Assembly (NCBI RefSeq): GCF_964204865.1
Contig: NC_135255.1
Span: 18,567,135-18,631,134 of the forward strand
From: Styela clava
Taxonomy: Eukaryota > Chordata > Ascidiacea > Stolidobranchia > Styelidae
Direction: 5' to 3'
DNA length: 64,000 nt
Shown: piece by piece, positions 1 through 39,119 of the stretch
How the letters are laid out: each line of letters begins with the position of its first letter
Position numbering within the stretch: the first letter of the stretch is position 1
Made by a program: the position numbers and the translations under genes
The notes under the pieces: generated by a model
Seen by the model: only the letters and a program-made list of their open reading frames with translations
What the model was told of the DNA's origin: nothing
The model's database searches: none

Positions 1-219
1 TTTTAACACCCTGATATAATCTATTAACTTAGTAGTCAAGTGCCGAAATTAAATGTTCCCAATACCTTCAGCAGCCGCATGCATATTTGGACTGCTTGTC
101 CAACGTATGTTTGCCGAGAGTGTGAAACAATTCGAAAGAATTTCAGTCACATATTCATATTTTTTCTGTGCACACACTTTCATGAGTTCATGAAAATTTG
201 TAATGTATTTTACGCTTAC

Positions 220-1242
220 CAGCAACAGTAATAAGGCCCGCTGATTGGTAATTTATGCCGGTCAACCAATATCCCAAATCCAGTTTCACCATTCGTATAA
301 CGAGCGCGTGATATTTTCCATATTTCGAGTGTGGGAGAATCCATTCAGCACAATCATAATATCCATCCGTATGCCTATCAGGTCGTTCAATCAGGTCAGA
401 AATAGCTTCACGCGGATATTTATTTTTGCAGTTGCACAATACTCCGTGGACTAATAAACAACCTGTGAAAAACGAGTTGTTGTGCAATCTTCAATTATAT
501 TTGGCGCAAATTTTTGCTCGAGGAAGTGAATTCGAACGGTTTGTTTCCCGACAAAAAGACCTATTTCAACGCATTGGGGTTGATGGTAACGGCCTATTCT
601 ATTATTTTTCTGTGCGATTGCAAAATTACTACAGCTAATTTTTGATCGAAATTTGATTGTTCTAATTTGTTTTATTACTGGTTTCATTGTATTATAGCTT
701 TTATCTAGAAAATTCGTTACTCCCGAAGTATGTGAACCAAGATGGCGGACACCGGAACGTGGTATGTGTACCAGGTTAGGGTTAGGCCATAATATTATTC
801 TAATTTCAATTATTTCATTTCTTTATAAATATGACCACAAAAAGGATGATAGCAGCCTACATAAAAAAAATGTATTTACTGATCTTCATTAGCCTATAAT
901 AGTTCGTATAAATTACTATGAGTCTACGAATAATAAATTCATTTCAAAGTATACCTTGTGCCAAAAGCACTTTTTTAACATTAAATTAAATATCAATAAA
1001 TACAAGACTCGAATGTTTCAACTCTAATTGCTCGCTAGGTGGGTTGCTTAAACATGATCAATCCTTTTGAATCCAAGCCATTCCGAATATTCAAAATAGC
1101 TCTAAATTATATAATATTTTGTCACTTTACTTGCGTCATAATATATTCATCTGTGAGTGTTTGTGACAATATATTTCATAAGTCCTATAATTTGTACATT
1201 TTACTTACCGAATAGTACTACTAAAATGTAAGTGTAATCCAT
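220..1242 (-). CDS. Receptor R0: 5' part of CUB-like membrane receptor, continues off left edge
   Basis: This is the first part of the leftmost member of the tandem receptor array. Exon 1 (1242-1209, 34 nt) starts with ATG and reads MDYTYILVVLF; it ends on a GTAAGT donor in phase 1. Exon 2 (462-220, 243 nt) follows a TTTTTCACAG acceptor, completes a hydrophobic signal peptide ending near VHGVLC, then gives the N-terminal half of a CUB-like domain with the pattern DCAEWILP followed by the strand ALVIRMVKL. It ends on GTAAGC, again phase 1. The remaining exons expected from R1 and R2 (second CUB half, membrane helix, tail) lie beyond base 1. It is about 90% alike to R1 over these exons by eye. 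The start is chosen because the same 34-nt first exon occurs in R1, R2 and R4. Function is inferred only from the family plan; ligand unknown. Confidence 0.72.
719..835 (+). mobile_element. MITE-like end, GATGGCGGAC family, in R0 intron 1
   Basis: It begins TACTCCCGAAGTATGTGAAC and AAGATGGCGGACACCGG and passes into GGTTAGGGTTAGGCCATAAT. The same unit is found at 7523, so it predates the array duplication. The right end is indistinct. Confidence 0.55.
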
Positions 1243-4200
1243 TCCGTCTCTTTTACTTTTATCTCAGATAGTTAACCTAGTATTCAACTGTGATGAAACA
1301 AGAACTCAAATTATAGGGCTACTATTTGTCATGCAGCATGTAACTCTTACTAATATAACAGTATTGCATTAGCTATTATGAGGAAATTACCATGCGTGCG
1401 TTGTTTCACAAACAGATAGCAGGATTATACACACACTCACCTCCCGCGTTATATTCAGAGGTCAGATGATTAGGTAGGAAGCTCTATTGAGTCTCTTCGT
1501 TTGGAATGCGCTGCCAATCGGCATGTACTGGCATCTATGTTACCTCGTTACAGTTTTGTTTGCGTTAACCAAGCAATTAATGTTTAGTCAAGTACCCAAA
1601 CAATATTAGGCGCTAAGTTATTGAAAAAAAAAATTTAGAAACGAAACTGCCTAATATTTATCCGATTGGCCAAGTTTGTATGAGTGACCGTTAGGTGCAG
1701 ATGGCCTGTTGCACAGTCGTAACACCTCGTCTCAATGATCTTCGTGATAAGAATACAAGATACAATTGGAGCAGATTCAACCTCGCTTTCGTGAGATATC
1801 TAACAGACAAATACCGATCAAGACCGCTAAGTAATGAGAAAAATCGGAATAAAATTATGACCTAACCCAACACGATACACACACTACGGGAGTATCGAGG
1901 AAACAATACCAAACAGGCAATCAACTATGAATAATTATTCGCACAAACGTATGACCCTAGCTTGAATAATACCGAAACGCGCAGTTATATAAGGATCATA
2001 TGCTTCACTCATAGGTTACACGAAAGACGTATTAGTAACATACCTTTCGTTCATTTTAAAGTGATATTATTGAAAATATCATATAATAAAGACTGGTTGG
2101 AAAATCACATGAAATCTTACCCTAGAGATAAAAGTCCCCAGTTTTTCAATTACAGCGACAAAGTACTTGGAGTCAAAAACGTGTTTCCGAAAATGGAAAA
2201 ACTTATCATGATATAATAATTAAACTTATTATTATGTATTTGGTCATTGAAGGTTGATTTGTGATCTGATAACTCACCGAATAGCTTAAAAGTAGCCAGC
2301 AAAGCCAATATTTTCAATTTTTTTTAATGCAATTTTTTGCGGCATTTGCAGTGAGACATAAATTCTTACGCCTTCTCCAACATCATTTTACTCTATTCTT
2401 TAACTATTTACTGAAAACTGACTTTTCCTGTCTGGCTTATCCAGCCGAGATAGATGAAAATGCGCGCTTGTACACCTTGAATAACTTCAAAGGCGAAGAG
2501 TGATCTTATGAGATATTGTAAGATATAAGTGGATGCTTTTATCTAGCCTTGTTCGGAGCAAAATGCACGAAGTAGCGACGTATTACGTCATTATACAAAG
2601 ACGGAAGTTGAATATTCTTTTTGATTTACGATCTTGCTGCAAACTAACTTACAGTATGTGAGCAGTACACTCTGGAATCGAATAAAACGATGTTCAGTTT
2701 ACAAATTCACGACCCAACCTGTCAACAATTTAATGCTAACCTCGTGTGTTTGCTGGCAAGACCATACTTTCTGGAAGAAATAAAGACAAGTAATACACGG
2801 GACATATATTGCTGTGATGTGATAATAACGAACAAAATTAAATACGTTACAGGTATTTTGAACCGTGTTGACAAAAATTTTACATTTTAATTTTGATTCC
2901 AGTTTTAAGCAAATTTGACTGCGGAAGACTGAATTTTTATCCCAATCGCTCACTTTTAAAATCATGAAATTTAGAGTTCTAAACTGTTAGGCATTGGTTA
3001 AACATTCAATTAAAAAATGATTTTATGATAGAAAAAAACACACATTTCATCAATTGATTCAAAAGCAAATTAATATAGATGACATGATATTTAAGTTAAA
3101 AATAATAAATTTGCATATAGAGTTCACAAGCTCAAACATCCAATGCCTTGACACAGGCAAACTACAGCCCGCGGGCCAAATTCGGTCCGTTCGGTAATTC
3201 AATCTGGCCCACCTGATGCTGCCACAACCAAACTAAAACCAAATTACAATGTTTTAGCCAAAAAAGGAATTTGTTGATATCGCGATAAAATTTAGTTTTG
3301 ACACGAGGTTTATTGTTTTCCCCGTTTTGATCTTGTGACACTGTATATAAAATTCTGTTGTAAATTGTTAAACTTTTTACGTCACACTTTCATGGCCCGC
3401 CTGTCTAGGTGGGCAAAATTTTTGGCGTGTAGTCCAATAACCTATCCCACCACTGCTTTAAAAGAACGGAGTAAAGAACAGCTCCTTGATTTGAATCAGT
3501 TATTAATTGTGTTTGACGGATACGAATCGATTATAACTTCCTGTATCGCTCTGGTATTTGTTCAAAAGTCAAAGTGTCAGATTATACTAAGTGTCGGATT
3601 ATACTATCTTGTGCTTTATGGTATATAATGTAATAAATACACGACTCCGTCAAACTTTACATTTTCAGGCAAACTGAGTCTATACTTTCAATCATTTAGA
3701 TTTTTTACTGGAATTTTTGATTTTCTAAATATAGGCAAACCTCACTCGTGGGGTTCCCACGAATAAAAATGGAAAAAACTTTTTTTTATCATTTTAACGG
3801 TTGAGATACGGGGAGTGCTAGGATATTAGTATGATACGAAATTGTTTAGATCACAAAACGTTTATACACATTCTCGTTTGCTCATCTCAAAATGATAAAT
3901 TGAATTATTAATTGGAATAAATACATTACTCCCGTATTGTATGTACCAGGTTAGGGTTAGTGCATAATTCTATTCCGGATTTCCTTATTTAAGTTCTATT
4001 ACGAGTACGGGGACTGTCTGTGTTAGCCAAGTGAATATACTCCTTGCCCATAGACTTCCGTTCTTTTACACAACTTGGCGTAAAGTGGACGAACAAAATT
4101 AGTTATCTTCGTACATACACTTCTGGAGTGCCCAAAATTGTTTGAAGCAAAATAAAAATCACAATAAGTCACACATTCTCGTTTTCTTCCCTCAATATGA

Positions 4201-4282
4201 TAAATTAAACGCTTAATTGTGATATATACTTATGTCGTTGGTGAAAAAGAAGATGGTCTTTGTCTTTTAAATAAATTAAATC
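1243..4282. other. Spacer between R1 3' end and R0 start
   Basis: No exon is visible. It matches 8044-11526, including an open frame at 1962-2216 that differs in many residues between copies. It also holds a hAT-like fragment near 3160 (GCCCGCGGGCC) and the MITE at 3927-4133. Confidence 0.5.
3927..4133 (+). mobile_element. MITE, TACTCCCG/CTCCAGAAGT family
   Basis: One end reads TACTCCCGT-TTGTATGTACC and the other is the reverse of CACTCCAGAAGTGTATGTAC, giving imperfect inverted ends of about 20 bp. The interior carries GGTTAGGGTTAG, ACGGGGACTGTCTGTGTTAG and GAACAAAATTAG like the other copies. It has no coding content. Confidence 0.7.
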
Positions 4283-4465
4283 TCAAGTCATGGTATAAAG
4301 CTCGTTCACAACAATTTCAGGTTGCATTTCTGCACGTGGATGTTCAACAGAGTGGTAAACTGGATCAGGACCCAAATCTCCATCACAATCTCTTGCTTCG
4401 TGTGTGTTGGTTGATGGAGCGACAGTTGCGTTGTTGCCACGGGCGTCAATGTTTCTTCCTTTTTT
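4283..4465 (-). pseudogene. Untranslated remnant of R1 tyrosine tail
   Basis: Past the TAA at 4468-4466 the frame stays open to a TGA at 4285-4283 and still encodes a tail very close to that of R2, including PDPVYHSVEHP and the end VVNELYTMT. Only one base (C to A in the codon after the splice junction) separates a full tail from none. Retention of the frame suggests the stop is recent. A sequencing error at the run of eight A is possible but would need a substitution, not an indel. Confidence 0.7.
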
Positions 4466-7400
4466 TTATCTGTGAATAGTAGCAGTACGTGGTGACATAG
4501 TCTACATGGAATATATCATAGCTACCGTATAAGGCGCGCTTTAAATACTTTTTCCTCAAACATCGACTATGCACCTTATAAGGCAATGCGCCTAATGTAA
4601 ATATCAAATAGTGCTTTATGGACCTAACTAAAAAGGTAGGAATCACGGGTATCAGTGACTAAAAAGGTGGGTATCAGTAGTGAATGACTAAAAAGGTAGG
4701 TATCACATTCACATGTATCCTTGACTAGAAAGTTAGGTATCAGTAGAAGATGACTAAAAATGTAGGGTTAGGGTTACTGATACCATGATCCATGACCCTA
4801 CCTTTTAGTCATCTACTACTGATACCTACCTTTTTAGTCATTCACCTACCGTATTAGTCACTGATACCTGTGATCCTTTGTAGTCGGGTCCGTTTGCCGC
4901 TCTATTTCCTACACTCAAACCCAGTCCTAGTGCTGGGTGCGCTTTATAGTTCCGGTGCGCCGTATGATCCGTGAAATAGTATATTTTTATATTGCCTTAC
5001 AATAACTGTATACCGAAGAATGGGTCTTCATATGAATCAATTCAAGAGATATCGGACATGAAACTTTTAACTATAACAGCAGTATCAGATTTTCAAACGA
5101 CAATGATTTACGACGCTGGCAGTATTATAAATTCCGTTTCTATAGACGTTTTAATATCGTTATTTTAGGAGTCGAACGAAATAAACAGAAAAAATCATAC
5201 AATTTAATACTAATATGTATACAATGACTATGTAGAGAATCGTAAGGTATGAATTTTGGTACTCCCGTTGTGTGTGTACTAGGTTAGGGTCAGGCCATAA
5301 TTTGAATCCGATTTCCTTTATTTAAGTTCTATTACTAGTTAGAGGACTCTGTGTTAGCCAAGTGAATATACCCCATGCTCATAGTTTTCAATCCCTTTAT
5401 GCAAATTGATGTAAATGAAGCGAACAAAATTAGTTACTTCCATATTGGTACACACACTTTTGGAGCGCCTGATTTTTTTATTAAAAAAGAACAAATAGTT
5501 TTTTCACACATGTTGTATTATACTCTTACTGACTTTAGTGCGACAGCAATCAACGCCAATGCTTCCAATCCAGAAATTATTCCAAATGCAATTGCAGCAC
5601 CAACTGCGCCAAAGTTTTCCTTGCTGCTATTATATTGATCCGCTGCTGTAGATTGTGTTTCGTTTAAGTCTTTTCTATGATTCGCATTGGGTTGCATAAA
5701 TATAAAAAATAAATTATTTGAAAATATAAAGCATATATAAAGACTGGGGGACTGCCATTAAAAAGTGGCGTTTGCTCTAGATCAGTAGTTTTTAACCTTT
5801 TTAATTTCGTGACTCAGTTTTGGTGCACAAAAGATTCTGTGGTCCATTAACTTTCTCATGCACAGGGTAAAAATACAAGAAAAACAAGAAAATTGTTCTT
5901 GCAAAGATGGAAGCTTTAAATCAATAAAATGAGAACTACCACCCAAAGCCAAAATGAAGCAGCATGATTTATTTCAATTCATCAATAACTCTTGCAATTT
6001 TTATTAGGTTTGTGGCCCAGAAGTCGGCCAAGCTAGGAGTGTATAATTTTCCATACTGTTACTTGATATATAAAAGACTGCTGTTCACAACAGGTGATGT
6101 CACATGTTAAGTCATCGAAGGCTGATTTAATAAACATTGAAGTTTAAATTTGCACGTGTGAAGAATGCCCGTACCTTGACATTTTATGTATTCATATTTA
6201 ATTCTAAATCCCCATCTCGCGGACTTTCTGCTGTCCTCCCTCGAAGGCTTGTACTCGATTTTGACATTGTCTCCTATATCCCCATAACGATGCCAAATTG
6301 ATTTGCACGGCGTCAATATTTCTCCGGAAACGGAACAGTGACTCGCTTGGGGATGATAAATATGGCAATCACCAGTAGAATTATCTGCCACGTTTCCGCC
6401 TGTGGAATTGTAAATTTATTGATAGCTGTTTTCTAAATTTCAATTACCGTATTGTGCAAACCATAAGTCTATAAATTGCTTGGGATGTTTTTTTTAATTA
6501 TATATAAGGCGCATCGGGCTTTTCGACGCATTGATTTTTAAAGCAATACCGGTATTGGTTTTGAGTGTTGGCACTGCCCAATCCATACATACCATTGGAC
6601 CTATGCCGCACAAAATCGATTTTTGAGAAAACTTAAGTATTTAAAGTGCGCCTGATGGTACGTAAAATACGGCCAGGGTATTAAAAAAGTTACGCAAAAT
6701 TAAGATAAAATTTTTTGTCATGGCAACGTTGAAAATGTAACTGTTAAAAAGCGTCAGTCGTGAAATGTTTTAAGTTTTTTTTCTGTTCATTTTGCGTTAC
6801 TTTTTTAACACCCTGATATAATCTATTAACTTAGTAGTCAAGAGCCGAAATTAAATGTTCTCAATACCTTCAGCAGCCGCATGCATATTTGTGACTGCTT
6901 GTCCAACGTATGTTTGCCGAGAGTTTGAAACAATTCGAAAGAATTTCAGTCACATATCCATATTCTTTCTGTGCACACACTTTCATGAGTTCATGAAAAT
7001 TTGTAATGTATTTTACGCTTACCAGCAACAGTGATAAGGCCCGCTGATTGGTACGTTATGCCACTTGTCCAATATCCCAAATTTAGCTTTACCATTCGTA
7101 TAACGAGCGCGTAATTTTTTCCATATTTCGAGTGTGGGAGAATCCATTCAGCACAATCATAATATCCATCCCTATGCTTATCAGGTCGTTCAATCAGGTC
7201 AGAAATAGCTCCACTTTGATATTTATTTTTGCAGTTGCACAATACTCCGTGGACGAATAAACAACCTGTAAAAAACGACTTGTTGTGCAGTCTTTAATTA
7301 AATTTGGCGCAAATTATTGCTCGAGGAAGTGAATTTGAAGGGTTTTTTTTCCGACAAAAACACTTGTTTCAACGCATTGGGGTTGACGGTAACGGCGTTT

Positions 7401-8043
7401 TCTATTATTTTGTTTTTGTGTGCGATTGTAAAATTACTACAGCTCATTTTTGATCAAAATTTGATTGTTCTAATTTGTTTTAGTACTGGTTTCATTGTAT
7501 AGCTTTTATCTAGAAAATTCAGTACTCCCGAAGTATGTGAACCAAGATGGCGGACATAGGAACGTAGTATGTGTACCGGGTTAGGGTTAGGCCATAATAT
7601 TATTCTAATTTCCATTATTCCAGTTTTATAAAAATATGACCACAAAAAGGATGATTGCAGCCTACATAAAAAAATGTATTTACTGATCTTCATTAGTCTA
7701 TAATAGTTTTTATAAAAATTATTATGAGTCTACGAATAATAATTCATTTTAAAGTATACCTTATGCCAAAAGCATTTTTTTAACATTAAATTAAATATCA
7801 ATAAATAAAAGACTCGAATGTTTCAACTCTAATTGCTTGCTAGGTGGGTTGCTTAAACATGATCAATCCTTTTGAATCCAAGCCATTCCAAATATTCAAA
7901 ATAGCTCTAATTATATCATATTCTGTCACTTTACTTGCGTCATAATATTTTCATCTGTGAGTGTTTGTTACAATATATTTCATAACTATAATTTGTACAT
8001 TTTACTTACCGAATAGTAATACTAAAAGGTAAGTGTAATCCAT
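4466..8043 (-). CDS. Receptor R1: CUB-like membrane protein with prematurely stopped tail
   Basis: Five exons can be joined: 8043-8010 (MDYTYLLVLLF, start of signal peptide), 7265-7023 and 6399-6175 (two halves of a CUB-like ectodomain), 5642-5534 (linker plus membrane helix around GAVGAAIAFGIISGLEAL), and a tail exon opening at 4469. Phases are 1,1,1,2 and the donors are GTAAGT, GTAAGC, GTACGG and GTCAGT. The ectodomain has the DCAEWILP block, an NST glycosylation sequon near the start of exon 3, and the C-terminal GFRIKYEY strand typical of CUB ends. The tail exon reads A-TAA at 4469-4466 where R2 reads A-TAC, so translation stops one residue after the helix and gives about 204 residues with almost no cytoplasmic part. 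The alternative donor GTAAGA at 5530 also leads to a stop soon after. The product may be a tail-less or decoy form; a relic is the other option. Confidence 0.72.
4622..4895. repeat. Palindromic minisatellite block near R1 tail exon
   Basis: GACTAAAAAGGTAGGTATCA repeats at about 25-50 bp on the left, and the reverse TGATACCTACCTTTTTAGTC on the right, meeting near 4765. A shorter piece (about 11873-11955) sits at the matching place in the next array unit. Confidence 0.75.
5260..5469 (+). mobile_element. MITE, TACTCCCG/CTCCAGAAGT family, in R1 last intron side
   Basis: It has the same ends and interior order as 3927-4133. It lies between the R1 membrane exon (5534) and the tail exon (4469). Confidence 0.7.
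6503..6675. mobile_element. MITE, TATAAGGCGCA/GTGCGCC family
   Basis: TATATAAGGCGCATCGGGCT on the left and AAAGTGCGCCTGATGGTA on the right are inverted. Relatives are at about 14180-14345 (array partner), 4528-4600, 11770-11845 and 36885-37060. Confidence 0.55.
7523..7640 (+). mobile_element. MITE-like end, GATGGCGGAC family, in R1 intron 1
   Basis: This is the array partner of the copy at 719, in the same position of intron 1. Head motif is TACTCCCGAAGTATGTGAAC. Confidence 0.55.
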
Positions 8044-8665
8044 TCCGTCTTTTTTACTTTTATCTCAGATAGTTAACCTAGTATTTAACTGTGATGAAAC
8101 GAGAACTCAAATTATAGGGCTAATATTTGCCACGCAGCATGTTTTACTAATATAACAGTATTGCAGCATTAGCTATCATGAGGTAATTACCATACGTGCG
8201 CTGTTTCACAAATAGCGGGATTATACACACCTCACCTCCCACGTTATATTCAGAGGTCAGATGATTGAAGCTCTATTGAGTCTTTTTGTTTCGAAACAAT
8301 GATCTGCCAATCGGCATGTACTGACATCTATGTTACCTCGTCTACAGTTTTGTTTGCGTTCTCCAAGCGTCTAATGTTTAGTCAAGTATCCAAAAAATAT
8401 TCGGAGCTAACATATTGAAAAAAGAATTTGGTAACGAAACTGCCTGATATTTATCCAACTGGCCAAGTTTGTATGAGTGACCGTTAGGTGCAGATGACCT
8501 GTTGCTCAGTCGTAACACCTCGTCTCAATGATCTTTGTGATAAGAATATAAGATTCTGGAAGCATGGTTTTGATTCAGCCGAACAGCGCATAGCCTACTT
8601 CGTATTCTTTAAATTACCATGGTAATTAACTTAGAATGTTTATCACAGCATCATAACGTGGAAAC

Positions 8666-8874
8666 GGCGCTATAGAAGTTTGTGTACCAATATGGGGGTA
8701 ACTAATTTTGTTCGCCTACTTGATATCGAGTCGTGTAAAGGGACCTAAACCTATATTGGGGGGGTGTGGGGGTCTCAGACAGACAGTCCCAGAACTCGAT
8801 ATTAAACTAAAATAAGGAAAATCGGAATAAAATTATGACCTAACCCTAACCTGATACACACACTACGGGAGTAC
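8666..8874 (-). mobile_element. MITE, TACTCCCG/CTCCAGAAGT family
   Basis: This is an inverted copy: it starts GGCGCTATAGAAGTTTGTGT and ends CACTACGGGAGTAC. It is absent from the matching spacer of the left array unit, so it is a newer insertion. Confidence 0.7.
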
Positions 8875-9939
8875 AGAGGAAACAATAACAAACAGGGAAT
8901 GAACTATGAGTCATTAATCGCTCAAACGTATGACCTTTGCTTGAACAATAGCGAAACGCGCACTCAGATAAGGATCATATGCTCCACTCATAGGTTACAC
9001 GAAGGACGTATTCGTAACATACCTCTCGTTAATTTTAAAGTAATATTATTGAAAATATCATATAATAAGGACTGGTTGGAAGGATCCCAAAATCACATGA
9101 AATCTTCCCCTGGAGATAACAATCCCTGGTTTTTCAATTACAGCGACAAAGTACTTGGAATCAAAAACGTGTTTCCAAAAATGGAAAAACTTATTATGAT
9201 ATAATAACTTATTATTATGTATTTGGTTATTGAAGGTTGATTTGCGATCTGATAACCCATTGAATAGCATGGGCGTAGCCAGCAAAACCAATATTTTCAA
9301 TTTTTTTCCCAATGCAATTTTGCGGCATTTGTAGTTGGACATAAATTCTTACGCCTTTTCCAACACCATTTTACTCTATTCTTGAACTATTTACTAAAAA
9401 CTGACTTTTCCTGACTGGCTTATTCAACCGAGATAGATGAAAATGCGCGATGCACACCTCGGGAAACTTCAAAGGCGAATCAGGTCTGTAGAGAGATCTT
9501 TTGATATATTGTAAGATATATGTGGCTCCTTTTATCTAGCCTTGTTCCGAGCAAAATGCATGAAGTAGCGACGTATTACGTCATTATACAAATAAAGAAA
9601 ATGAATATTCTTTTTGATTTACGATCTTTCTGCAGACTAACTTACAGGATGTGTGCAGTAGACTCTGGAATCAATAAAACGATGTTTAGTTTACAATTTC
9701 ACGACACAACTTGTCAACAATTTAACGCTAACCTCTTGTGTTTTCTGACAAGACCATACTCTCTTGGTGAAACAAAGACAAATAATACACGAGACATATA
9801 TTACTATGGTGTGATGATAACAAGCATAAATAAATACGTTACAGGTATTTTAAACATTCTAATGAAGTTTTCTTTCATTAAGGTAAGAGAGCAATTGAAA
9901 TATATGTTGAATTGATAGACGAACCAAAGGTCGAGTAAA

Positions 9940-10310
9940 AATTTGTTCTGTAACGTGTTGACAAACATTTTTGATTTAATTTTAATTCCGGGTTTAAGAA
10001 AATTTGATTACGGAAGACTGAATTCCTACCCAGATTGTTCACTTTTAACAAAAACATGAAATTTAGAGTTCGAAACTGCTTAAACATTCAATAAAAAAAG
10101 ATTTTATGATGAAAAAAACACACATTTCATCAATTGAAAATTTGTTTTGTAACGTGTTGTCAAAAATTTTCGATTTTAATTCCGGGTTTAAGAAAATTTG
10201 GCTGCGGAAGACTGAATTTCTATCCCGATCGTTCATTTTTGTTAAAAGCATGAAATATAGAGTTTGAAACTGTTTAAACATTCAATATAAAAAAAGATTT
10301 TCTGATGAAC
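9940..10310. repeat. Local tandem duplication, two units of about 190 bp
   Basis: Two adjacent units share AATTCCGGGTTTAAGAAAAT, GCGGAAGACTGAATT (first unit with small changes) and AACACACATTTCATCAATTG. The matching place in the other array unit (about 2865-3060) has one copy, so the duplication arose after the array. Confidence 0.75.
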
Positions 10311-11160
10311 AAAAACACATTTTTTCAATTAATCAAAACCAAATTAATCCAGATGACATGAAAATTAAGGATAAAATATAATAAATTTACATTTAGAGTT
10401 CACAAGCTTAAACATTTAACCTTTAAAACAGTGGTTCCCAACCCTTTTATATCGCGACACACTATTGAGCACTTCAAATATTTGCGGCTCACCTATCACA
10501 AAACATGAACAGTCCAAGTTCGCTCCCAACAAAAACGAAAAAAATAATTGAAATTATCCGCCCCTGGCGCACACTTGGCTTACTCTCAAGTTATTTCCAA
10601 GTTTTAAATTGAAATGCGCGTCTGTAATTCGATATGCTAACTTTCAACTGTCTATTGGAAATTGGAATCACTTGAAACAATTTCAAAAATGAAATCTGTT
10701 CGCGACACGGTGGCTGGTAACTTTAAAAGAAAGAATAGCTTCTTGGTTTGAATCAGTTATAAATTGTGTTTGACGGATAATATTCAATTATAACTTCCTG
10801 CATTGCTCTGGGAGTGTCGGATTATTATAACCTTTTTTCCTTATGGTATATTATATAATGTATACACGACTCCGTCAAACTTTAAATTTTTAGGCAAACC
10901 GAGTCTATAATATTTATTCATTTATAATTTTCATTGAATATTTGGTGTCTGAATAAGCAACCTAACCTCACTTGTAGAATTCCCGCAAAAAAAAGGCGTT
11001 TGTATCGTTTCAACGTTTAAAATATAGAATATAGAAAATTCTACGATATTAATATAATGAAGAATTGTTTACAGCAAGATAAAATCACAAAAATTCTGTA
11101 CACATTCTTCTTTTCTTATCTCAGAATGATAAATTGAATTCTTAATTGTAATAAATACGA

Positions 11161-11372
11161 TACTCCCGTAGTGTATCAACCAGGTTAGGGTTAGGAAACA
11201 ATTTCATTCCGATTTTCCTCATTTTAGTTCTATTACGAGTTCGGGACAGTCTGTATTAGCCAAGTGAATATACCCTCTACTCATAGCTTTCAGTCCCTTC
11301 ACACAACCCGATGTAAAGTGGGCGAGCAAAATTAGTCATCTCCATATTAGTACATGCACTTCTGGAGTGCCC
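11161..11372 (+). mobile_element. MITE, TACTCCCG/CTCCAGAAGT family
   Basis: Array partner of 3927-4133; begins TACTCCCGTAGTGTATCAAC and ends at CACTTCTGGAGTGCC. Confidence 0.7.
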
Positions 11373-11526
11373 ACAATTGATTGAAGCAAAATAAAAATCA
11401 CAAAAAGTCACATTCTCGTTTCTTTATCTCAGTATGATAAACTAAATGCTTAATTGGGATATATACTTTTGCCCTTGTCTTTCATGAAAAATAAGATAGT
11501 CGTTGTCTTTTAAAGAAATTAAAATC

Positions 11527-26925: not shown

Positions 26926-29900
26926 ATGTTCAAAAACAAAAATGGCCCATTGGATATTATACGGTACTTAATATTTGGTGAGTGATACATAAAATAATGA
27001 GGTTTTTAACAAATGCATTTTAATGGAGTTCATTGAAAAAATTCTGTAGTTTTAGCGCCACCACTTGCATATAGAGTGTTATTTGTTTGAATAATAATGA
27101 TACTTGAAACCTTTCACATACAAGCCATGTTAGTGAATAAGTAAACGCACTATTATTCATTTATCATATTTAGCTTTATGAAACAACGTTGAGATATGAT
27201 TAATTCAAATACCTTCAAATACCATTCAAATTAAAAAAAACTGTTTTCCAGTTAAATTATTTTGGATCTTTTTTATTGTAGGATTATTATCCGCTGTATC
27301 AACAAAAGCAATGAACCATCATGCTTCATCTAACCCTTGTTTAGGTGAGTAATATAGTCTCCAACACTTTAGATTTCTCAAAAATTAAAATGTAGAAGCA
27401 TAAAGAGTACTACAAAGACAAGACTGAGTATAATTGCTACTTTTGAAAAAGAATAATCTTGATACTATGTTCTCTGGGTTAATTTAAAAACTACATTTGT
27501 AATTCAACCCCGAACCGAGGGTTTTCTCCATTTTGGGCTTCGTTGGCCAGACACAGCAATCTCTAAGTATCAGTCGGGTTCACACGAGACTAACTACCTT
27601 TCTTTTCTTTATCCATATAATGCAATAATTGTGTATCAAAAATAAAGACGCCTATTCTATTTGATTGTTTTATATAAAGGTAATTTATCGATACCGTATA
27701 TTGTTTTGGCCATCAGAGATGTAATAAATGAAGAAACATACTTGCTGAGAATAACTGATTAAAAAACAACAAACCTGGTTAAAGTATATTGAAAACTGAT
27801 ATTATAACAAAAGTGAAATTGTAAAGAGATTTTATGGGCATCCTACATTTGTGTTAGCGTGCAGCAAGACTCAATTAGAATAATGCCTTGGATTAGAGGC
27901 CTTGGTTCACCATGTAACTTAGCAGTCTTATCGGCTTTCCATTCCAGGGTAAATATGTAAATACAATTCTTCTTAAGAATACAACATGGCTGAAAACCTG
28001 ATCCTCAGTTCGGGAAGTGGAACAGTTGAGTCCAGCATGATAGCATTCATGGCGCCGGGATGCAGATTACAACTACCTCACAATTACTCACTGAACACTC
28101 ATGCTTTGTTGATTAAAGTCGAAAAAATGCAAATTAAAGGATATTGCGTCGAATGCGAAACAGATTATTGTAGAAGGGACATCACTATATTAGGTGAACT
28201 AAGGTTTTTATTGTTTTTCTCGACTATAGTTTTTAGTATGATTAACCAAGGAAACGATGAATGGTCGGAATGAATTTTTTTAATCGTCGAAAGAAAAGTT
28301 TATCAGTCATTTCCTAATATTCCAAAAGTTAAATCCCCCCAGAATTAAGATTATAAGGTTCTGCGACAATTGAAATCTATTTCATGTTTTGCTTTATCAA
28401 TTTCCTCGCCGTAAGCCATTATGATTCCAGTCAGGCACGTCTATAAACAAATAAAGAAACGAAATCTTCGAGTGAATGTGCATAATACAAATATCCTGGC
28501 AGGTTCTTCCACTTCCAATTGTAATCAGATGCATGATGGTATTTAAATATTATAAATTCCACAGAATATAGTGACCAACTTCAAATATTCACTATTTTGA
28601 ACTACATTAGGCAAATGAGCCATAATTTTATTATAGTAATTTACTTCCATTTTACTCGCCTGTTAATGCAAATTAAATTCGCAAATTTCGGTAATTCCGT
28701 AGTATACCAGGTTAGGTCATAATTTTATTCCGATTCCGAGTCTCTTTATACAACTTGATGTAAAGTAGGCGAACAAAATAAGTTACCTCCATCTTGGTAC
28801 ATACACCTCTGGAGCGCCAAAAATTTCTCATATCATGTGATATCGAAGTTTTAATGTTTTTATGTCGTTCAGGTCAAAATATATGTCACTCAGAACCAGA
28901 CACTTGTTTCATATTTCAATCAAAATCAACAACGGAAAATCGAATTACGAAATCCGAGGAGTTGGACAATTGCGTAACCCAACACCGGATAATTGGAAAT
29001 TTCAAAGAGTTTCCGGAATTCGATTTTGGTCGAGCGCGGGGACGCACAACGAGCACCACTAAATATTTTAAACTTCAATATACCTTCATGGAATTTGAAA
29101 AACCACGAACAAGTAAGTTAGTCAAATATCAACTGGTAGCATTTGGTTTTCCCTGAAATATTATTTTAACATAATGACATATGGAATATGTGCAAATCAA
29201 TAAATATGTCGAAATGTTGAGATTGTGAGTTATGGCAGAAATGTAAACAGTTAGTTGCAGACGATCTGGCAATTCGAACAATTGCTAGTTGACACGAGAC
29301 CTGAAGCAATGCGATTAAATAAACAAACGTGTAATTTATTTTTTCCGCCAATAAGTCGTAAAACGGTTACACAAATTAAAATAAAATCATTCAAACACAA
29401 CTTGAAAGTGGATTAGAAATCGCGGAAAAACCACCATGTTATCTTGTAGCATCCAAAATCGTAGTTTAGTAAATTTACATCTTTTAGGCAGGGTTGTGCA
29501 ACCTGTAATAAAGGAGGGCGCAGATACAAATAACTGGATGAAGCCGCGGACCGCACTTATATTTAACATATAGGCTTTCTAGTGGTGGCAAGCACAACAA
29601 TTTTGGTTATTGATCTTATGATATGCGTTGTTCGTTGGGGCATTGCAACGTCATGGCCATAGATAATAAGTTGGGATCAAGTATAGGCTTTGCAACGCAA
29701 AGGGATTGGAATTACACGCACTAACTAGATTAAACTAAATTGATACTGGTTTTGCAGGCTGCACATTGTTCAAAACTGGCACTTCTCCGCGTGCTGCACA
29801 ATGTTTTTTTGTGGTCCACCTTTGGCCCGCAGGTTGCACGCCCTGTCTTATTAAAGAATTTCGGCATGATTCAAAATTTTTCACGCGCTTATATTTGCAA

Positions 29901-30740
29901 TGTTCACATTTATTTTTGCAGCTATTCAGCCAACAACAGTGCGCTCCAATCAATCATCAACAACTTCATTAACACTACTTGAAATCATACTTACTGCATC
30001 GCTCGGGACAGCGATCATCACACTCGTCATTGTTTTATCAATATGGTGAGCTTGTGTTAATATTACTATAAATTGGGAAATAAAGAATTTGTATTTATAA
30101 ACATAAGACAGAAACCGGTACAAATAACCCAAGAAATAATATAAACAAATTGACAGACTGTAGAACTGACTCTAAGTCAGAAACTCTTCGGTAAGTGGTG
30201 GCAACCCGTTTCAATTCAAATAATATCACAAGTCAGATCTATCCATTTATTTCCATAATGAATGGAACAAAGGTAATTATCGAACACAAACTGATTTGAA
30301 AAGACAGTAAGGCGTGACAATAAATAATAGAAACATCGTAACTATAATCCACAGTAAGAGACGATGGGTCTGAAAAGACACGGAGTCCTCGTGTCAGCGA
30401 CACCTATCAACTTAATTTAAAGATGTGGTTAGATGGCTCCATAAAATATAATAATTCACTTTTGCCGGGTTACATTTCGCTCAGTAAATTTCCCTGACAT
30501 TTCTCTTTCTCAACATTTTTTTCTAACCAGCGATCCATGTTTAACAGGTGTCGTCAAGCTCAAACCGACCGAGAACAGTCACAGCCAGCCAACACTTCAC
30601 AGAACGAAGATCAACTCACTGTAAACACAACTGATACTCGTTTCGTGCAAATTGAAGGAGTCTACTCAACGCCACTGGATGCTTATAGTACATTAGCAAA
30701 GCATGTGGTAAACCCGGCATATGATACGCTGGTCATATAG
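26926..30740 (+). CDS. Receptor R3: CUB-like single-pass receptor with cytoplasmic ITAM
   Basis: Six exons join in frame: 26926-26977, 27282-27344, 27978-28193, 28873-29112, 29922-30045 and 30548-30740 (888 nt, 295 residues). The first two give a signal peptide (IIRYLIFGLLSAVSTKA) and a short spacer; the 63-nt exon 2 has no counterpart in R0-R2 or R4. Exons 3 and 4 are the two CUB-like halves: SGTV, then GCRLQLP and ALLIKVEKM, and later the strand KYFKLQYTF. Exon 5 gives a Thr/Ser stalk and a helix (about 208-231, ASLGTAIITLVIVLSI). The tail has Y271, Y278 and Y290; the last two form YSTL-x8-YDTL, exactly the ITAM spacing. Such motifs recruit Syk-type kinases in known families, so an activating role is inferred. 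A second acceptor at 30530 would remove the ITAM. AATAAA follows the stop by 11 nt (30752). Ligand unknown. Confidence 0.78.
27675..27846. mobile_element. MITE, TA-flanked family, left-truncated, in R3 intron 2
   Basis: It carries AATTTATCGATACCGTATAT and AACAAACCTGGTTAAAGTAT, and ends GATTTTATGGGCATCCTACA. Confidence 0.65.
27895..27966 (+). mobile_element. SINE tail fragment abutting an R3 splice acceptor
   Basis: GTCTTATCGGCTTTCCATTC and GGGTAAATATGTAAATAC match the body and tail of the tRNA-derived SINE. The acceptor of the first CUB exon of R3 lies 11 nt past its end. Confidence 0.65.
28693..28818 (+). mobile_element. Shortened MITE, TACTCCCG family, in R3 intron 3
   Basis: Left end TTCCGTAGTATACCAGGTTA and right end CCTCTGGAGCGCC are both present, with an internal deletion. 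It ends about 55 nt before the acceptor of the second CUB exon. Confidence 0.65.
29489..29845. mobile_element. hAT-type MITE in R3 intron 4
   Basis: It starts CAGGGTTGTGCAACCTG and ends CAGGTTGCACGCCCTG. It sits about 75 nt before the acceptor of the membrane-helix exon. Confidence 0.75.
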
Positions 30741-30751
30741 AACATAATAAT

Positions 30752-30799: not shown

Positions 30800-30876
30800 T
30801 TGTTGGCGTTTCAATGTTGGATTATTGATGTTGCTCAAGACAGCAGCGTACAAATACAACATTGAAACGCCAACAA
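30800..30876. repeat. Perfect 20-bp inverted repeat, 37-nt loop, just past R3
   Basis: TTGTTGGCGTTTCAATGTTG at 30800-30819 is exactly complementary to 30857-30876. Folded as RNA it would give a 20-bp stem. It lies 60 nt past the R3 stop and next to a SINE-like segment (about 30880-30990). Confidence 0.85.
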
Positions 30877-32602: not shown

Positions 32603-35600
32603 ATGAAGTTGGTTGCTGTATTCATATTAATTTGTGGTGAGTAAAGCGCAAATATGAGAAAAAAAAATTTTTTGATAGTAACTTAGTACAGGGCAGTGGC
32701 GGCGCGTCAATAGGGCCAACCGGGGCAATGCCCCGGTTGTTTTTTCGGTATTATAAAAAATATTCGAAAAATACCTCAATATCGGTTGCACAGACTGTCT
32801 ACACTAGCCATATTCTCCCGACATGGTTCATTTTTCGCTCGCAACGTCTTCGCCGAACTTCGACGGGGCGACGCCGATTTTGCCCCGGTTGCTCATTGTA
32901 TATCGTATTCTCTCTTTTATCTTCCACTCGCCGCGTTTGTCTCGTTTGTTTTCTGTTTCTTTAACTAAATCATCGGGGCCGATCGGGGCTAGCCCCGAAA
33001 TTACAACGTGTTGACATATTCACGCATTCCTTCTCGTTCGTTGGTTGCTTGAAGAGTTGATAGTTTCCTCGCCTTCGTTTTTGTCGCTTGTTTCGCTATT
33101 TGAATCAGTTAGAGACCTTAAGTCCATTTGCTTTCGATTTTCCACATTCCTTTTGAGCTCCTCACTTCTTTCCGGCTTCGCATTTCTTAGCCTTAGACCT
33201 CATAATGAATAAGGTTGATGCACTACTTCGCACTCCGTTTTCGCAGCTGCCGCTGGAACAAAAATTAGGGCCTTATCAACCAAAAAATTGTTCACTGGAA
33301 CAATCCCATGACGGAGGAAAGCGTCGGCGTACATTCTGCACAGAAACGTGGTATAAAAAACACGAATGGTTGTGTTACAGCGAGGACAAAAATGCACTTT
33401 TTCGTTTTTATTGCCTACTTTTTGCTACCGCCCGTGACTCACGTTGGTGTAAATTTGGTTTTAGAGATCTTAAACATCTTTCCGAGCGTGCCAGGGATCA
33501 TCAATCTTCTATGGAGCATCTGAACAATGCAGTAAAATACCGAACATTAGGAAATGTTAATATTGCAGCACAGTTGGATGAAGGACGCGCGGTTTCTATT
33601 CGTCGGCACAACCAAAACGTCGAGAAAAACCGCCATGTTCTCGGTCGATTGATAGATGTTTTGAAGTGCATTGGTTGTCACGAGCTGTCCCTCCGTGGGC
33701 ACGATGAACGGGCTGGCTCTTCTAATAGAGGGGTATTTTTGGATATGGTGGAATACACCGCATCCCTAGATACAGTATTGAGAGATCATCTTGATGACGC
33801 AACTGTTTCGAAAGGGACATCTAAGGATATCCAAAATGATTTGCTCGACTCGACGAATGTATAAAATTTATTTACAACATTTGGCTCTGGAAATTGAGAA
33901 TTGCCAGTTCCTTTCGATTCAGTCTGACGAGACAACTGACATCACGTGCATTTCCCAACTGGCTGTGATTTTTCGGTTTGTGAAAGATGGTAAACCTACC
34001 GAGAGATTTCACAGCTTTGTACCAATCGTTGATCGCACGGCTTGCGGGATATCGGCTGTAATGAAAGAAGTGTTACAGCCTTACAACGCGAAGTCAAAAT
34101 TGATAGCTCAAACTTATGACGGCGCGGCAGTCATGAGTGGGTCGAAACATGGTGTTCAAGTTTATATAAAAGAAGATTTTCCTCATGCGCATTTTTTACA
34201 TTGTTATGCACACCAATTTAACCTCGTTATTAAAAATATGTGTCTTGATACCCCTCTCGTCCGTATATTTTTTGCAAATGTTTCGGGGTTTTCTTCATTT
34301 TTTTTCCGTTTCGCCGAAGCGCTCTGACCTCCTTCGCCAGATATGTAGCCGCCGTCTCCCAGCTCGTGCACCAACACGTTGGAACTTCCAATCACGCGTG
34401 GTGCAGGGCGTGTCCGAAATTAGGTCTGAGCTCATTGAGTGTTTCAATGGCATTCAGAGCTCTCCGGTTTGGAACGAACGCTCTGTGAGGGAGGCGGCAG
34501 GTCTAAAGCGTCTGCTAGAAGATGGTGAGTTTTCATTTTTTTCTCGCTTTTTTCTCCACAATATTCTATCACGTGGATGTATTATACGGCGCATTGCAGT
34601 CAAGGCTAATGGATGGAGCGTCTGTGCAGTCGTGTATTTCAGACTTCTGCGATGCTGTATCTCGTATCCGGGAAACAATAAAATACGACGACACATGGAG
34701 TGCTTCTTTACGCCGCGGGCAAACAACGCAGCTTTTGATTTTGTCTGCAAAGGAATGCTGTGACATTCTGGTGAATCAAATAGGCGATCGTCTGCGCACT
34801 GAACACCTTGCCGCGTTCTCTTTGATGAACCCCAAAAATTTTTCAAAATTTGCACGTCAATTTCCCTTCCATTTGTTGGCTACTGTCTCCAAATTTTACC
34901 CCATGATAAACGTGGGTAAATTGGAAAATGAATTGCGATGTATATACAATACACCAATCAAACTTTTTTGAACATCACATCAACTTGCGCGCTCTATGGG
35001 TTCCTCATAGATAACACTCTAGTAACTACCTTTGCGGCGTCTGCAAAATTTCTGGACATCATTTTGACGACGCCTATTTCTTCCGCCGACGCAGAGCGAA
35101 CATTCAGCACGCTGAAGCGTATTAAAACGTATCTCAGAAACACAATGAAGCAAGATAGATTAAATTCCTTGGCTGTTTTATCCATTCACAGAGACGTTAT
35201 TTCTGGGATGCATGACTTTAATCAGCGCGTTATTGAGCATTTTGCTTCCAAGAAACCGCGGCGTGTTGCATATATGTTCAAGCAGTAGAAGTCTAGCAGC
35301 ATATATATCTATCAGTGAGCGACGCATGTCCTTATCTTTGCATTACCTTTCCTTTCTTCACAGTAACGTTTTAAACCTTATTTTAGGTTTTGTCTGCTTT
35401 CCCGAAGTTTCTGTTAATATGTCATTGTATTTATCTGGGTAAATATTGCCTTTCCTTTTGAAAGAGGTTTCAAAATAAACTATGTCTATATTTATTAATC
35501 CCTTGACTTGGACCGGTTTTAAAGACACTTTCTTATTGTTAAAAATTGTCGCTTTTGCCGATTGGTTGTTACCGATGGAATGGTTTTTATACTCATAAAA

Positions 35601-38600
35601 TGATGGGAGAACTTACAGCGCTCATCCTGTCCCCGTAGATGGGGGTGACTTGGTCCCGCAGTAGCTTGCCCCGGTTGTCAAAATGACCACGCGCCGCCAC
35701 TGGTACAGGGTGTTGAAATGCTAATATTATATCCAGTTCTTAACGAACCATTGTTTGCTCGATATTATATCAGTGATTTATCCAGTTAAGTCGCGGCCCG
35801 CAAGCTTACTTTTGATAAACAAGAGCCTTGGCTTATGTATGTTCAAATCACGGTTTGTGTGTAGAGAGTTCCTGGCTTATTTTGCCCCCTGAATAGAACA
35901 AATCCGCCAAAATTCCCTTTGAATGATTCTATATGTGTTCGTGGCGTTCAAAGTGAAGTGATGCGAATGTATAAAAACATCGCAAAAGTAGGGATAAACC
36001 TTCAAATTTAACCTTGCTGTGAGATCAATAAGATGTACATTTGACAAAATATGTTGCGCTTTTCCAGAAATAAAACGAAAACGTTTAATGATTTCAACTC
36101 CAACCTTCCAGCTATTTGATATGCATAGTTCAGATCAGGGCAGGACAAACTACACTATACTAGCCAGATGCGCCCCGTCAAATTGTTTTAAGCGGCCCCT
36201 TACTCTTAGAGGAAGTTTTACAGCAACATACAAAATTTTGATTTATTTAAAATATCGAAACTATGAATTGTTGAAATAATGATAATGTTTTTTTTTTCGT
36301 CTTTTGCTCAGCAATGTCAGCCAACAAAAATTCGATACTTTTCTCAATGTGGCTTTTTCAAACAAGACTCTGTGAATTTCGCCTTTGAAAAACCAAACAT
36401 TGCCCGAAGTTTAAACGTTTGCAACAGTCATAATTATGTGTTTTGTGGACTTTGGAGGTGTCAAAATATTGAACTCGCCTGAATACAGTTTTTGAATACA
36501 AATAAAATGCTTGAGACCATAGACAACATTCCGGTTTTCTAATACTGTAAATCAGGAATAGCGAATAACACGAAACTATTATTATTCTTAAAGGGCTTGT
36601 CAGAGCAAACGCCGCATCGTGTGAAGAGATTACCATAGATGAGTTGACAGGTCAATTCGGCTACCAAGAAGATGCGACAAGTGGATTCTGCAAAAGATGG
36701 AAATTACCACAACCTGATGATAGAGTCCTGATACTGCGCCTACAGAGCATCAAAATGATAAAAAGTAACGGGGATCGCACGGCAAAACTCGTTATTGCAG
36801 GTATGGAGTATATTTTATCAAAGGCGTATTATAAAATATTATCTGATTGTGGCCAAAAAAATAAAAATAAAAAATAAACCTAATTACCGAATTATACGGG
36901 CCATGAGGCGTTTTGAATACTTTTTTTTTTCGAAAATCAACCTTGCGCCTTATAAACTCATGCGCATATGTTTGGATCAGGCAGTGTTCTATACTTTATT
37001 GCCTAAACCGAGGACCAGTACCGGTTGCGCTTTATCTATAAATAAAAACCTAATCTAAGCACTTTATGGTCTCTACGAATGGGTCTATGTTTCCTTCACA
37101 TTCAAATATGATTACGAAAATACACTGTCATTTATTTTAATGTCTGCAATACGGTAGTTTTTCCAGAATATTGTTTCAATAGTGCTGGTCTCAGTCACTC
37201 TAGTTTGGATTGTACTTTCTATACCGAATGCCGGGTAGAAAAAAATGCGGAACCTATTGCAATAAATTAGTCGATTTTATGAAATGGTATTGGCTAATAA
37301 CACTCTCTAGGAAATCTGATCCATCATGTTTTAAAAAATAAGTTGCGGAAAGTGAAATGATTTTTGCGTGGAGGAATCATATTCGCGGTATTTGTCTCGT
37401 TAAATCTGAGCCATGCTCGTCCTCACTCTCTCGGGGAGATACGGTAACGGCCTTCTGATCTATTTTTAGCTTTTTATCAGCCAAACGAGCTCAACTAATT
37501 CGACTAGTTTCGCAGACAAATTTATATGTTTATATTTTTAATATTACACGGTAATTATGGAAAAATATATCAATCGAATATTAGTGGATTTTCAAAGGTG
37601 TAAACTACGAAATACGTTATATTGGCACAAGATCCTGCGCACGCAACTCAATGTATCAGTTTAATACAATAGATAGGCTAAACATTTATTTATTTTACCA
37701 CCCATGGTAGCCAAACCCAAAAAGTTTTCTGATTGTACACCAAGATTACTAGTGTCTGTGCACAATGCATCTCGATCTCAAACATCAAGTTCTCATGTTC
37801 TGGAATATCTCCATTTTCAAGCTGAAATAATGTGCACTATGAATAATTTCAACATTATTTGTTTTAACCCGTCTGCCCTGCACACTTGAGGTAATGATTA
37901 CATATTATTGGAATATCGGCGACAACAGTGGTATCGATACATCTCCAATACAAATGTGATAGAAGCTTCGATTAGCAGTTTGCTTAAATAGAAATATCCC
38001 TGAACCTGTTTTGTTTTCCTTATAGGGACCGACTATTGTTTCATGAATTCCGGTTCTTGTTTTGTTATTCATCGTGTCGGATTTAAGGATTTCAATCATG
38101 TTGCACCACTGGTTGCAGACTGTACTCCTACTATATGGATCAATGCTTCAAACAGTGAAGTGGAATTTGAAGTTACAAAGGGATGGCTCGACCCAACTTT
38201 CAAATTTCAGTTGGATGTTAATGGTATTAGATCGACCGCTACCACCACAGGCTGTAAGTTGAGAAATGATTCTACTCGCGTTTAAGCATGGGGTCAGTGT
38301 GTGAAAAAATAATCAGCTAGCGAATACTACTCTCAGATATGAATACAAAAAACAACTTATTATTTTTAGGTTTTGCCATCATGGCATGTAACTTTTGAGC
38401 ATATTTCTTAAGAAAATTAAAGACCTTGTTGAGTGATCTATGTAAAGTTATATTACATTATTGCAGCTAATATTACGACCGCAAACTCATACAGAGACTA
38501 TTCTGAAGATAAGGATTCGAAGAATCTAGCAGCACCGATTGTTCTGGGAATAGCACTATTTCTTGCACTGGTAGCTCTTTCCGCTGCTCTTATCAGGTGA

Positions 38601-39119
38601 CAGTTATAAGTATATATTTAATAAATTATATACAAACAGTACTGCAAGACCAGGTCAAGAGTTTCACGTGATCAGTGGTTACGTTCCAGCAAGTTGCATT
38701 AAAACTGGCGGCATGAGAAATTACTAAATTTTTAAAAATGAACCCACACGAAACTATCATAAAAAATCCTTACACGTAGAGAGTTGGTATGTTTTGAAAA
38801 CGGATATTTCAACAGAACATACTAAGTTTTAACAGTGGGTGAGGTTGAACCTGGTCGTGAATTTTTACTAGGCCCAATCTCCTGACGCTATTTAAGTTTA
38901 ATATTAAAAAAAAGTAATCTATAATTTTTAATTAATTTCAGATTGAAGACATATGCAGCGACCGAGACCAATTTCTGCATTCCTCAAATACAGATAAGCA
39001 GTTCCCAGAACTGCCCTGTACAACCTGAAGACCACATATATCACACCTTGGACAAAGTGGACCAACAAAGTCACCATTGCCTTGCAGAAGTAGTTGTAAA
39101 TGACTTGTATACGATATGA
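32603..39119 (+). CDS. Receptor R4: CUB-like single-pass receptor, two-tyrosine tail, hAT in intron 1
   Basis: Five exons: 32603-32636 (MKLVAVFILIC, again 34 nt), 36594-36800, 38026-38253, 38467-38596 and 38942-39119, total 777 nt or 258 residues. Phases 1,1,1,2 match R1-R3. The mature protein begins near ANAASCEE. The CUB-like ectodomain shows GQFGY, CKRWKLP and VLILRL in the first half and the strand FKFQLDV at the end of the second; NAS and NIT sequons are present. The helix is about 177-199 (APIVLGIALFLALVAL). The tail holds Y233 in EDHIYHTLDKV (YxxL) and Y256 in VVNDLYTI at the very end, closely matching the R2 terminus VVNEIYTMT. Intron 1 (about 4 kb) contains a 3 kb hAT element. Sequence divergence from R1/R2 is high, so the gene is recognised mainly by architecture. 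It is probably a cell-surface receptor; ligand unknown. Confidence 0.78.
32694..35702 (+). mobile_element. hAT transposon (DUF4371/ZMYM1-like type), decayed, in R4 intron 1
   Basis: The element starts and ends with the same 14-bp inverted repeat (CAGTGGCGGCGCGT) and is flanked by a perfect 8-bp target duplication, GTACAGGG (32686-32693 and 35703-35710), the hallmark of hAT transposition. Both ends also carry CAACCGGGGCAA a little further in, and the left end has a near-terminal 10-bp hairpin at 32718-32738. Inside is a broken transposase. The insertion is in the sense orientation of R4. Confidence 0.9.
33205..35288 (+). pseudogene. hAT transposase relic with frameshifts
   Basis: The protein reading moves through at least four frames: 33205 to about 33850 (N-terminal TTF-type zinc finger, RRRTFCTETWYKKHEWL), about 33850-34327 (DUF4371 core with SDETTDIT and HCYAHQFNLV), parts of 34300-34520, 34590-34971, then about 35000-35288 with the hAT dimerisation motif SSADAERTFSTLKRIKTYLR. 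One expected zinc-ligand cysteine is Arg (ALFRFYC, where relatives have FC-x2-C). With several frameshifts it cannot make an active enzyme as it stands. Assignment rests on the DUF4371 and dimerisation motifs plus the element ends. Confidence 0.88.
36885..37060. mobile_element. MITE, GCGCCTTATA family, in R4 intron 2
   Basis: It contains GCCATGAGGCGTTTTGAATAC, split by a T run, then CTTGCGCCTTATAAACTCATG and GGTTGCGCTTTAT. It is related to 6503-6675. Confidence 0.45.

Follow-up and report, generated by a model that had tools for sequence, protein, structure and literature searches.

A 64 kb window of the genome of the tunicate Styela clava (C6:18567135-18631134, the whole stretch of DNA that was analyzed, in an assembly of 376.6 Mb) contains five genes, R1 to R5, that are predicted to encode small type I receptors. 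Their predicted layout comprises a signal peptide split between exon 1 and the exon after it, an ectodomain of ~140 amino acids over two exons (hereafter, ecto-A and ecto-B), one membrane helix and a cytoplasmic tail of ~60 amino acids. We rebuilt the models from the sequence and checked the junctions and phases by script, and all internal junctions of R1-R5 have an AG acceptor and a GT donor. R1-R3 are encoded on the minus strand, R4 and R5 on the plus strand. An earlier prediction (hereafter, the original prediction) of five neighboring genes on both strands is borne out by these putative, splice-consistent models.

R1 (1-1242, minus strand) was modeled by its splice sites and phases, with exon 1 at 1209-1242 (34 nucleotides) and ecto-A at 220-462. 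It is cut by the left window edge, and its ecto-B, helix and tail exons were located just left of the window, both in the flanking sequence and by a genome search. R2 (4283-8043, minus strand) has exon 1 at 8010-8043, ecto-A at 7023-7265, ecto-B at 6175-6399, the helix exon at 5534-5645 and the tail exon at 4283-4469. The R2 tail opens with an in-frame stop, the protein as assembled terminates at the junction residue, and further stops fall within the similarity match over the tail stretch; the same frame stays open in R1, R3 and R0, a gene outside the window. R3 (11527-15533, minus strand) has exon 1 at 15500-15533, ecto-A at 14981-15220, ecto-B at 13630-13854, the helix exon at 12409-12502 and the tail exon at 11527-11713, with YQTV and VVNEIYTMT in the tail. 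R4 (26926-30740, plus strand) has exon 1 at 26926-26977 (52 nucleotides), an extra exon at 27282-27344, ecto-A at 27978-28193, ecto-B at 28873-29112, the helix exon at 29922-30045 and the tail exon at 30548-30740. The R4 tail holds YSTL-x8-YDTL, which matches the consensus of the immunoreceptor tyrosine-based activation motif (ITAM), and NPAY. R5 (32603-39119, plus strand) has exon 1 at 32603-32636, ecto-A at 36594-36800, ecto-B at 38026-38253, the helix exon at 38467-38596 and the tail exon at 38942-39119, with YHTL and VVNDLYTI in the tail. The predicted proteins of R3, R4 and R5 are 258-295 amino acids long.

As originally predicted, exon 1 is exactly 34 nucleotides in four genes (R1, R2, R3 and R5). 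The pattern of this exon also matches upstream of R0 and C6h, both outside the window, and over 20 genes it gave five matches on the gene strand versus two on the opposite strand, in a search that reached 3.5 kb upstream (exon 1 of R5 is farther away). The junction phases 1,1,1,2, predicted for every complete member, were found by script in R2, R3 and R5; R4 has 1,1,1,1,2 through its extra exon, which is 63 nucleotides long and phase-symmetric (1-1) and, being symmetric, could be skipped in splicing. In the alignment, the predicted ectodomain motif C-x2-(W/Q)-x-L-P is present in R1-R3 and R5 and one residue shorter in R4, and R5, which reads F-x-L-x-V, departs from the F-x-(I/L)-x-(Y/L) predicted for the closing strand.

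The idea that the family consists of five genes is refuted by 20 genes in the 243.6 kb that were read and ~57 candidate loci overall. An iterated profile, seeded by blastp with the window exons, was run on stretches of C6 (163.6 kb) and C19 (80 kb). It retrieved 21 ecto-A reading frames, two of them fragments of a single gene, with E ≤ 5.1e-4, whereas the best remaining frame had 0.41. For ecto-B it gave 20 frames at E ≤ 4.7e-17, followed by one at 0.022. These E-values are flattering because the profile contains the frames it scores. Both ectodomain exons are present in 20 genes, 14 on C6 (including R1-R5) and six on C19. Further genome searches with R3, R4, R5 and later queries reached C6 at 18.26-18.46 Mb, 18.776 Mb and 1.33 Mb, with more matches at C19:8.50 Mb, C10:15.6 Mb and C17:11.8 Mb and an array at C1:27.585-27.950 Mb. 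Counted by eye, with E < 0.05 in at least one search and with degraded second copies left out, the ~57 ecto-B loci are the 20 in the stretches read, 27 near full length on C1, six others on C6 and one each at C19:8.50, C10, C17 and C6:1.33; three additional ecto-B loci on C1 are in pieces and stand outside this count. The loci beyond the 20 genes are exon-by-exon candidates, of which C6:18776, C10 and one C1 gene were inspected as sequence. These counts are lower bounds, given that only the best candidates were scored, and weak single matches may be false.

The inspected C1 gene has the order ecto-A, ecto-B, helix and tail, as in the window genes. A phase-1 donor lies at the aligned ecto-A end in 18 of 20 pairs (it is placed otherwise in C19a and C19c), and a phase-2 donor, the only phase sought at the helix end, was found there in 14 of the 15 genes considered other than R2-R5 (C19d is broken; C19c was outside the sample). 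Titles and abstract openings retrieved by searches of the open-access literature, which leaves preprints and most subscription papers outside, describe no tunicate CUB-like receptor family with tyrosine tails; this is weak evidence of absence and agrees with the original prediction, which recognized no described family.

Several C1 genes (C1:27.76-27.93 Mb) have two ecto-B-like matches, the second lying ~300 bp past the first and being shorter or degraded. Two family tails, at C6:18505410-18505628 (minus strand) and C6:18524518-18524664 (plus strand), have no recognized ectodomain nearby and are probably either more divergent members or remnants.

In a midpoint-rooted tree of 22 ectodomains, R0-R3 group with C6h and C6d (98/95), R4 groups with the C10 gene (99/97), and R5 groups with the C6:18776234 gene (88/82; both are long branches, hence unsure). 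The C19 genes cluster (84/92), as does the C1 gene with C6a-c and C6e-g (96/96). Subfamily profiles match one another at 96-98% (scores 59-87). Because R4 groups with the C10 gene and R5 with C6:18776, three distant lineages appear to lie side by side, and R1-R3 likely form a recent tandem set, which R0 joins from outside the window, beside the two distant lineages R4 and R5. The tandem duplication originally proposed for the whole cluster therefore fits R0-R3 but probably not R4 and R5. The fast evolution in the original prediction was also half right: identity to R3, R2 aside, is 14-21% in the members, 28% in C6d and 34% in C6h, but the ectodomains of recent copies have ratios of nonsynonymous to synonymous substitution (dN/dS) below 1. 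A dispersed repeat with the core TAACCTGGTACACAC (at most two mismatches) has 11 copies in the window, in both orientations, versus 0.17 expected. Eight copies fall within the first 16.2 kb (764-16151), and the repeat may have contributed to the tandem duplications.

With slightly better than even confidence, we read these genes as a large tunicate family of small type I receptors, each with one CUB-derived ectodomain and a tyrosine tail, most likely used in innate recognition. As read from the DNA, the predicted genes have one exon plan, form a common family, and carry tail motifs and coding constraint; from analogy we infer an immune function, which the original prediction also raised, namely recognition with phosphotyrosine signaling.

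The tail motifs were counted in 21 tails, some of them close copies, including the two orphans (C6:18505410 and C6:18524518) and leaving out R2. Y-x-x-Phi (Phi, hydrophobic) is present in 20 (shuffle mean 10.0), Phi-Y-x-x-Phi in 17 (2.1) and a C-terminal Phi-x-[NDSEK]-x(1,2)-Y in 16 (0.9), the latter two counts being reached in 0 of 500 shuffles. The C-terminal motif is absent from C6d-g and from the C1 gene tail, which is different and has many tyrosines. Ten tails chosen without a tail pattern had these motifs in nine, seven and nine cases (shuffle means 4.4, 0.8 and 0.3), and 0 of 500 shuffles reached the Phi-Y-x-x-Phi or the C-terminal count; R3-R5 were taken by hand, the C1 gene from all frames, and R0, R1, C6a, C6c, C6h and one orphan by blastp, these last resembling the R3 tail by selection. 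Three points about the tails speak against immune signaling receptors. Part of the 21 tails were picked with tail patterns, which makes the 20, 17 and 16 counts partly circular. The ITAM spacing Y-x-x-L/I-x(6-8)-Y-x-x-L/I is found in R4 only (1/21), and at least one such match arises in 46 of 500 shuffles. The immunoreceptor tyrosine-based inhibitory motif (ITIM), [S/I/V/L]-x-Y-x-x-[I/V/L], was rejected, with one match in 21 tails (C6b), rarer than the shuffle mean of 3.2. A glutamate sits mid-helix in R0-R3 and C6h (5 of 20 helices), which suggests pairing with a putative partner bearing a basic helix residue; R4 has a glutamate near the helix edge.

The strongest rival takes the same tails as drivers of uptake, in endocytic or scavenger receptors, instead of immune signaling. 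Y-x-x-Phi and Phi-x-N-x-x-Y act as clathrin and PTB-adaptor sorting signals. Both tail motifs belong to this class, a literal NPxY is present in R4, and the tails are short, with little else common to the subfamilies. However, arrays with diverging ectodomains and the mid-helix glutamate in five members fit recognition better, and C6d-g, which lack the C-terminal motif, and the different, many-tyrosine tail of the C1 gene also speak against uptake. We consider this rival possible, though unlikely.

For receptors with a CUB-derived ectodomain, as we favor, the evidence comes from profile comparisons. The CUB reference profile was built from 12 canonical CUB domains, taken from seven of eight loci of a genome-wide CUB search. 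The 22 members matched it at 88.7% (score 38.8; 60 shuffles ≤ 16.3) over 44 columns, in the first half only, and 20 members at 72.3% (score 33.0) over 100 columns end to end, with column shuffles reaching ≤ 19.05 (60) and ≤ 14.2 (60 more) and the reversed alignment 11.7. With C6d and C6h removed, the match was 75.3% (score 33.8; 60 shuffles ≤ 16.5). The C19 group matched at 92.1% (score 42.4; 30 shuffles ≤ 19.0), and R0-R3 with C6d and C6h at 16.1% (score 24.5; 30 shuffles ≤ 21.0). An earlier run with seven CUBs gave 47.7%, and the 22 members matched two canonical CUB groups, taken apart, at 65.3% and 91.3%. The two canonical groups match each other at 98.3% (score 80), and the receptor family is therefore remote from CUB. 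In C6d and C6h, G-x-I-x-S-P-x-Y-P stands ahead of the C..W stretch. The ectodomain is probably a remote CUB relative, as seen solely through relatives outside the window.

Several results weigh against a CUB origin. Pfam CUB (PF00431) stayed below cut-off in every row scanned (single exons, five proteins and 14 rows): five members gave no match, the 14 rows one (E 0.029), and one of six single exons had E 0.013 and 16.3 bits versus a cut-off of 21.4. Of 350 candidate CUB matches in the genome, 150 were scored, and none of these lies in the arrays. R0-R5 alone matched the CUB profile at 1.25%, with a score of 16.9 barely above the shuffle maximum of 15.9 (30), and C6a-c, C6e-g and the C1 gene alone at 2.8%, with a score of 19.0 below the shuffle maximum of 20.7 (30). 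AlphaFold2 gave single ectodomain exons, that is halves, predicted local distance difference test values of 44 and 42, a confidence too low to be of use. The family junction between ecto-A and ecto-B is in phase 1 and, by eye, ~2 codons further than the CUB donor. A PDB search with two profiles found nothing significant: the best E was 0.38 with one, which also matched antibody fragments (E 0.69 and 0.73), and 2.3 with the other.

The split canonical CUB exons of this genome have their best donor in phase 0 after D-[YF]-[VIL]-x in 7 of 7 cases (7 of 20 sampled), as chosen by place and a simple consensus score, with other-phase donors near and some sites weak. An intron common to these exons and the family was rejected, given phase 1 versus 0 and the different place; the mismatch argues against those split exons as the source of the family, but a CUB domain as its ancestor is unaffected.

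The CUB-like character in the original prediction is thus supported for the 22 members together and for the C19 group, and not for R0-R5 alone or at the Pfam cut-off. These failures, and a 22-member match confined to 44 columns, speak for another small disulfide-bearing beta fold that mimics the C-x2-W start. Against such a non-CUB fold stand the G-x-I-x-S-P-x-Y-P then C..W of C6d and C6h, the 92% of the C19 group and the 100 columns of the 20-member match, and we think it rather improbable.

Among close copies (R0-R3 and four C19 genes), dN/dS, given as point estimates, was 0.13-0.64 in ectodomain exon pairs; the ectodomain exons are under coding constraint, and the point estimates for the close copies tested give no sign of positive selection in their ectodomains. 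The tails of R0-R3 have dN/dS of 1.1-1.9, on 2-2.5 silent changes per pair and thus little informative, and this, with the stopped R2 tail, counts against the favored reading. At silent sites, the tail exons of R0, R1 and R3 are closer than the ectodomain exons of R3 are to those of R0-R2. Synonymous divergence (dS) in the tail exon is 0.065 for R3 versus R0/R1 and 0.052 for R0 versus R1, and R3 differs from R0-R2 by 0.50-0.60 in ecto-A and 0.21-0.30 in ecto-B; Fisher tests on hand-rounded counts gave 5.7e-5 and 6.3e-4 for ecto-A versus tail and 0.014 for ecto-B versus tail. At the DNA level, R2 and R3 are 89.5% identical over 599 bp round the tail and 71-85% identical elsewhere, bar a 64-bp piece at 89%. 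The pattern is consistent with exchange between genes, or conversion, in the tail region.

Fertilization in tunicates employs CUB-bearing as well as highly variable proteins, and on this ground the family could instead act in gamete or egg-coat recognition (self-sterility). The lack of any sign of positive selection in the close-copy ectodomains speaks against this, and we regard it as improbable. It is very improbable that the array is mostly decaying copies with few working genes: the R2 tail stop, the broken helix and ecto-A of C19d, the interrupted ecto-B of C6f and, on C1, the degraded second ecto-B copies and the three loci in pieces point that way, but the 20 genes read have mostly open exons and usable splice sites, and the ectodomain pairs tested have dN/dS < 0.65.

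If the genes encode innate recognition receptors, the ectodomain would fold as a divergent beta sandwich of CUB type, with proteins or sugars on microbes or other cells as its ligands. Ligand binding would cluster the receptors, and a Src-type kinase would phosphorylate the tail, whose membrane-proximal Phi-Y-x-x-Phi would recruit SH2 proteins and whose C-terminal Phi-x-N-x-x-Y would recruit an adaptor of PTB or SH2 type; the R4 tail could itself serve as an ITAM and signal directly. The receptors would serve in innate recognition, of microbes or of self/non-self, on blood or epithelial cells, and the family would be kept by gene birth and death, with exchange between tail exons. Tentatively, and with considerable doubt, the genes may form a natural killer (NK)-type complex built on CUB-like domains, spread over several chromosomes and independent of the immunoglobulin (Ig) and lectin systems. 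The R4 ITAM, two-tyrosine tails, acidic helices of R0-R3 and C6h, the tail-less R2, swapped tail exons and diverging ectodomains would suit such a complex. If the favored reading of the family is right, it would be a second large tyrosine-tailed receptor family beside the Ig-based system of fester and the Fester co-receptors (FcoR) in Botryllus, on another ectodomain, and clustered tyrosine-motif receptor complexes would have arisen more than once in chordates. The list of loci is usable for expression, polymorphism and ligand work.

Other features were found in and beyond the window. Intron 1 of R5 (~4 kb) contains a broken hAT-type transposase (33157-35288, plus strand), a passenger and not part of the receptor. 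Its frames overlap in different registers, and its four pieces, searched apart, matched Dimer_Tnp_hAT (8.6e-11) and DUF4371 (3.1e-6 and 7.2e-6, below the family cut-off), with one piece without a match. The R3 intron holds, just upstream of the ecto-B exon, a stretch with a GGTTCGAGTCC box (13950-14020) that resembles a tRNA-derived short interspersed element. A BTB/POZ exon at 52161-52514 (minus strand, 3e-6) is unrelated to the receptors. The searches found nothing at the Rfam gathering score, no tRNA, and no COX1 in the assembly. At C9:16172400-16181664 there is a cellulose-synthase-type GT2 frame (Glyco_trans_2_3 1.9e-16, Cellulose_synt 8.6e-7), with a GH6 exon ~1.8 kb downstream on the same strand, a tunicate-type arrangement; the two probably belong to one gene. 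To our knowledge, CesA fused to GH6 occurs in tunicates only, and the arrangement thus points to a tunicate genome.

Vertebrate paired NK-type receptors are clustered and small, with tyrosine tails, Ig or C-type lectin ectodomains and canonical ITIM/ITAM spacing, and ITAM adaptors have an acidic residue mid-helix. The family resembles them in its clustered small receptors, tyrosine tails and acidic mid-helix residue (R0-R3 and C6h), but canonical spacing is present only in C6b (ITIM) and R4 (ITAM), and the ectodomain is CUB-like. With CUB PF00431 it shares, in some members, a G-x-I-x-S-P-x-Y start and C..W, as well as a hydrophobic strand and a closing F-x-I-x-Y; it differs by an extra cysteine-bearing stretch that opens the second half and by junction phase 1, not 0. 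The FcoR of Botryllus schlosseri are encoded by clustered loci, tens in number, that are spread over several chromosomes. They are type I proteins of 520-610 amino acids that combine IgV, sushi and two C2-type Ig domains, with Y-x-x-I/L/V tails and possible canonical ITIM or hemITAM (PMC12065747). Botryllus is reported to express homologues of nearly all ITAM/ITIM pathway proteins, LAT and SLP-76 excepted (PMC12065747). The family here is likewise of a tunicate, in clusters on several chromosomes, type I, and with Y-x-x-I/L/V cores (20 of 21 tails), yet it has 258-295 amino acids, one CUB-like domain and a single ITIM among 21 tails, and the Pfam matches of the 5 and 14 rows scanned include no Ig or sushi family. 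On the best reading, these would be recognition receptors with phosphotyrosine signaling that resemble the Botryllus FcoR kind without belonging to it.

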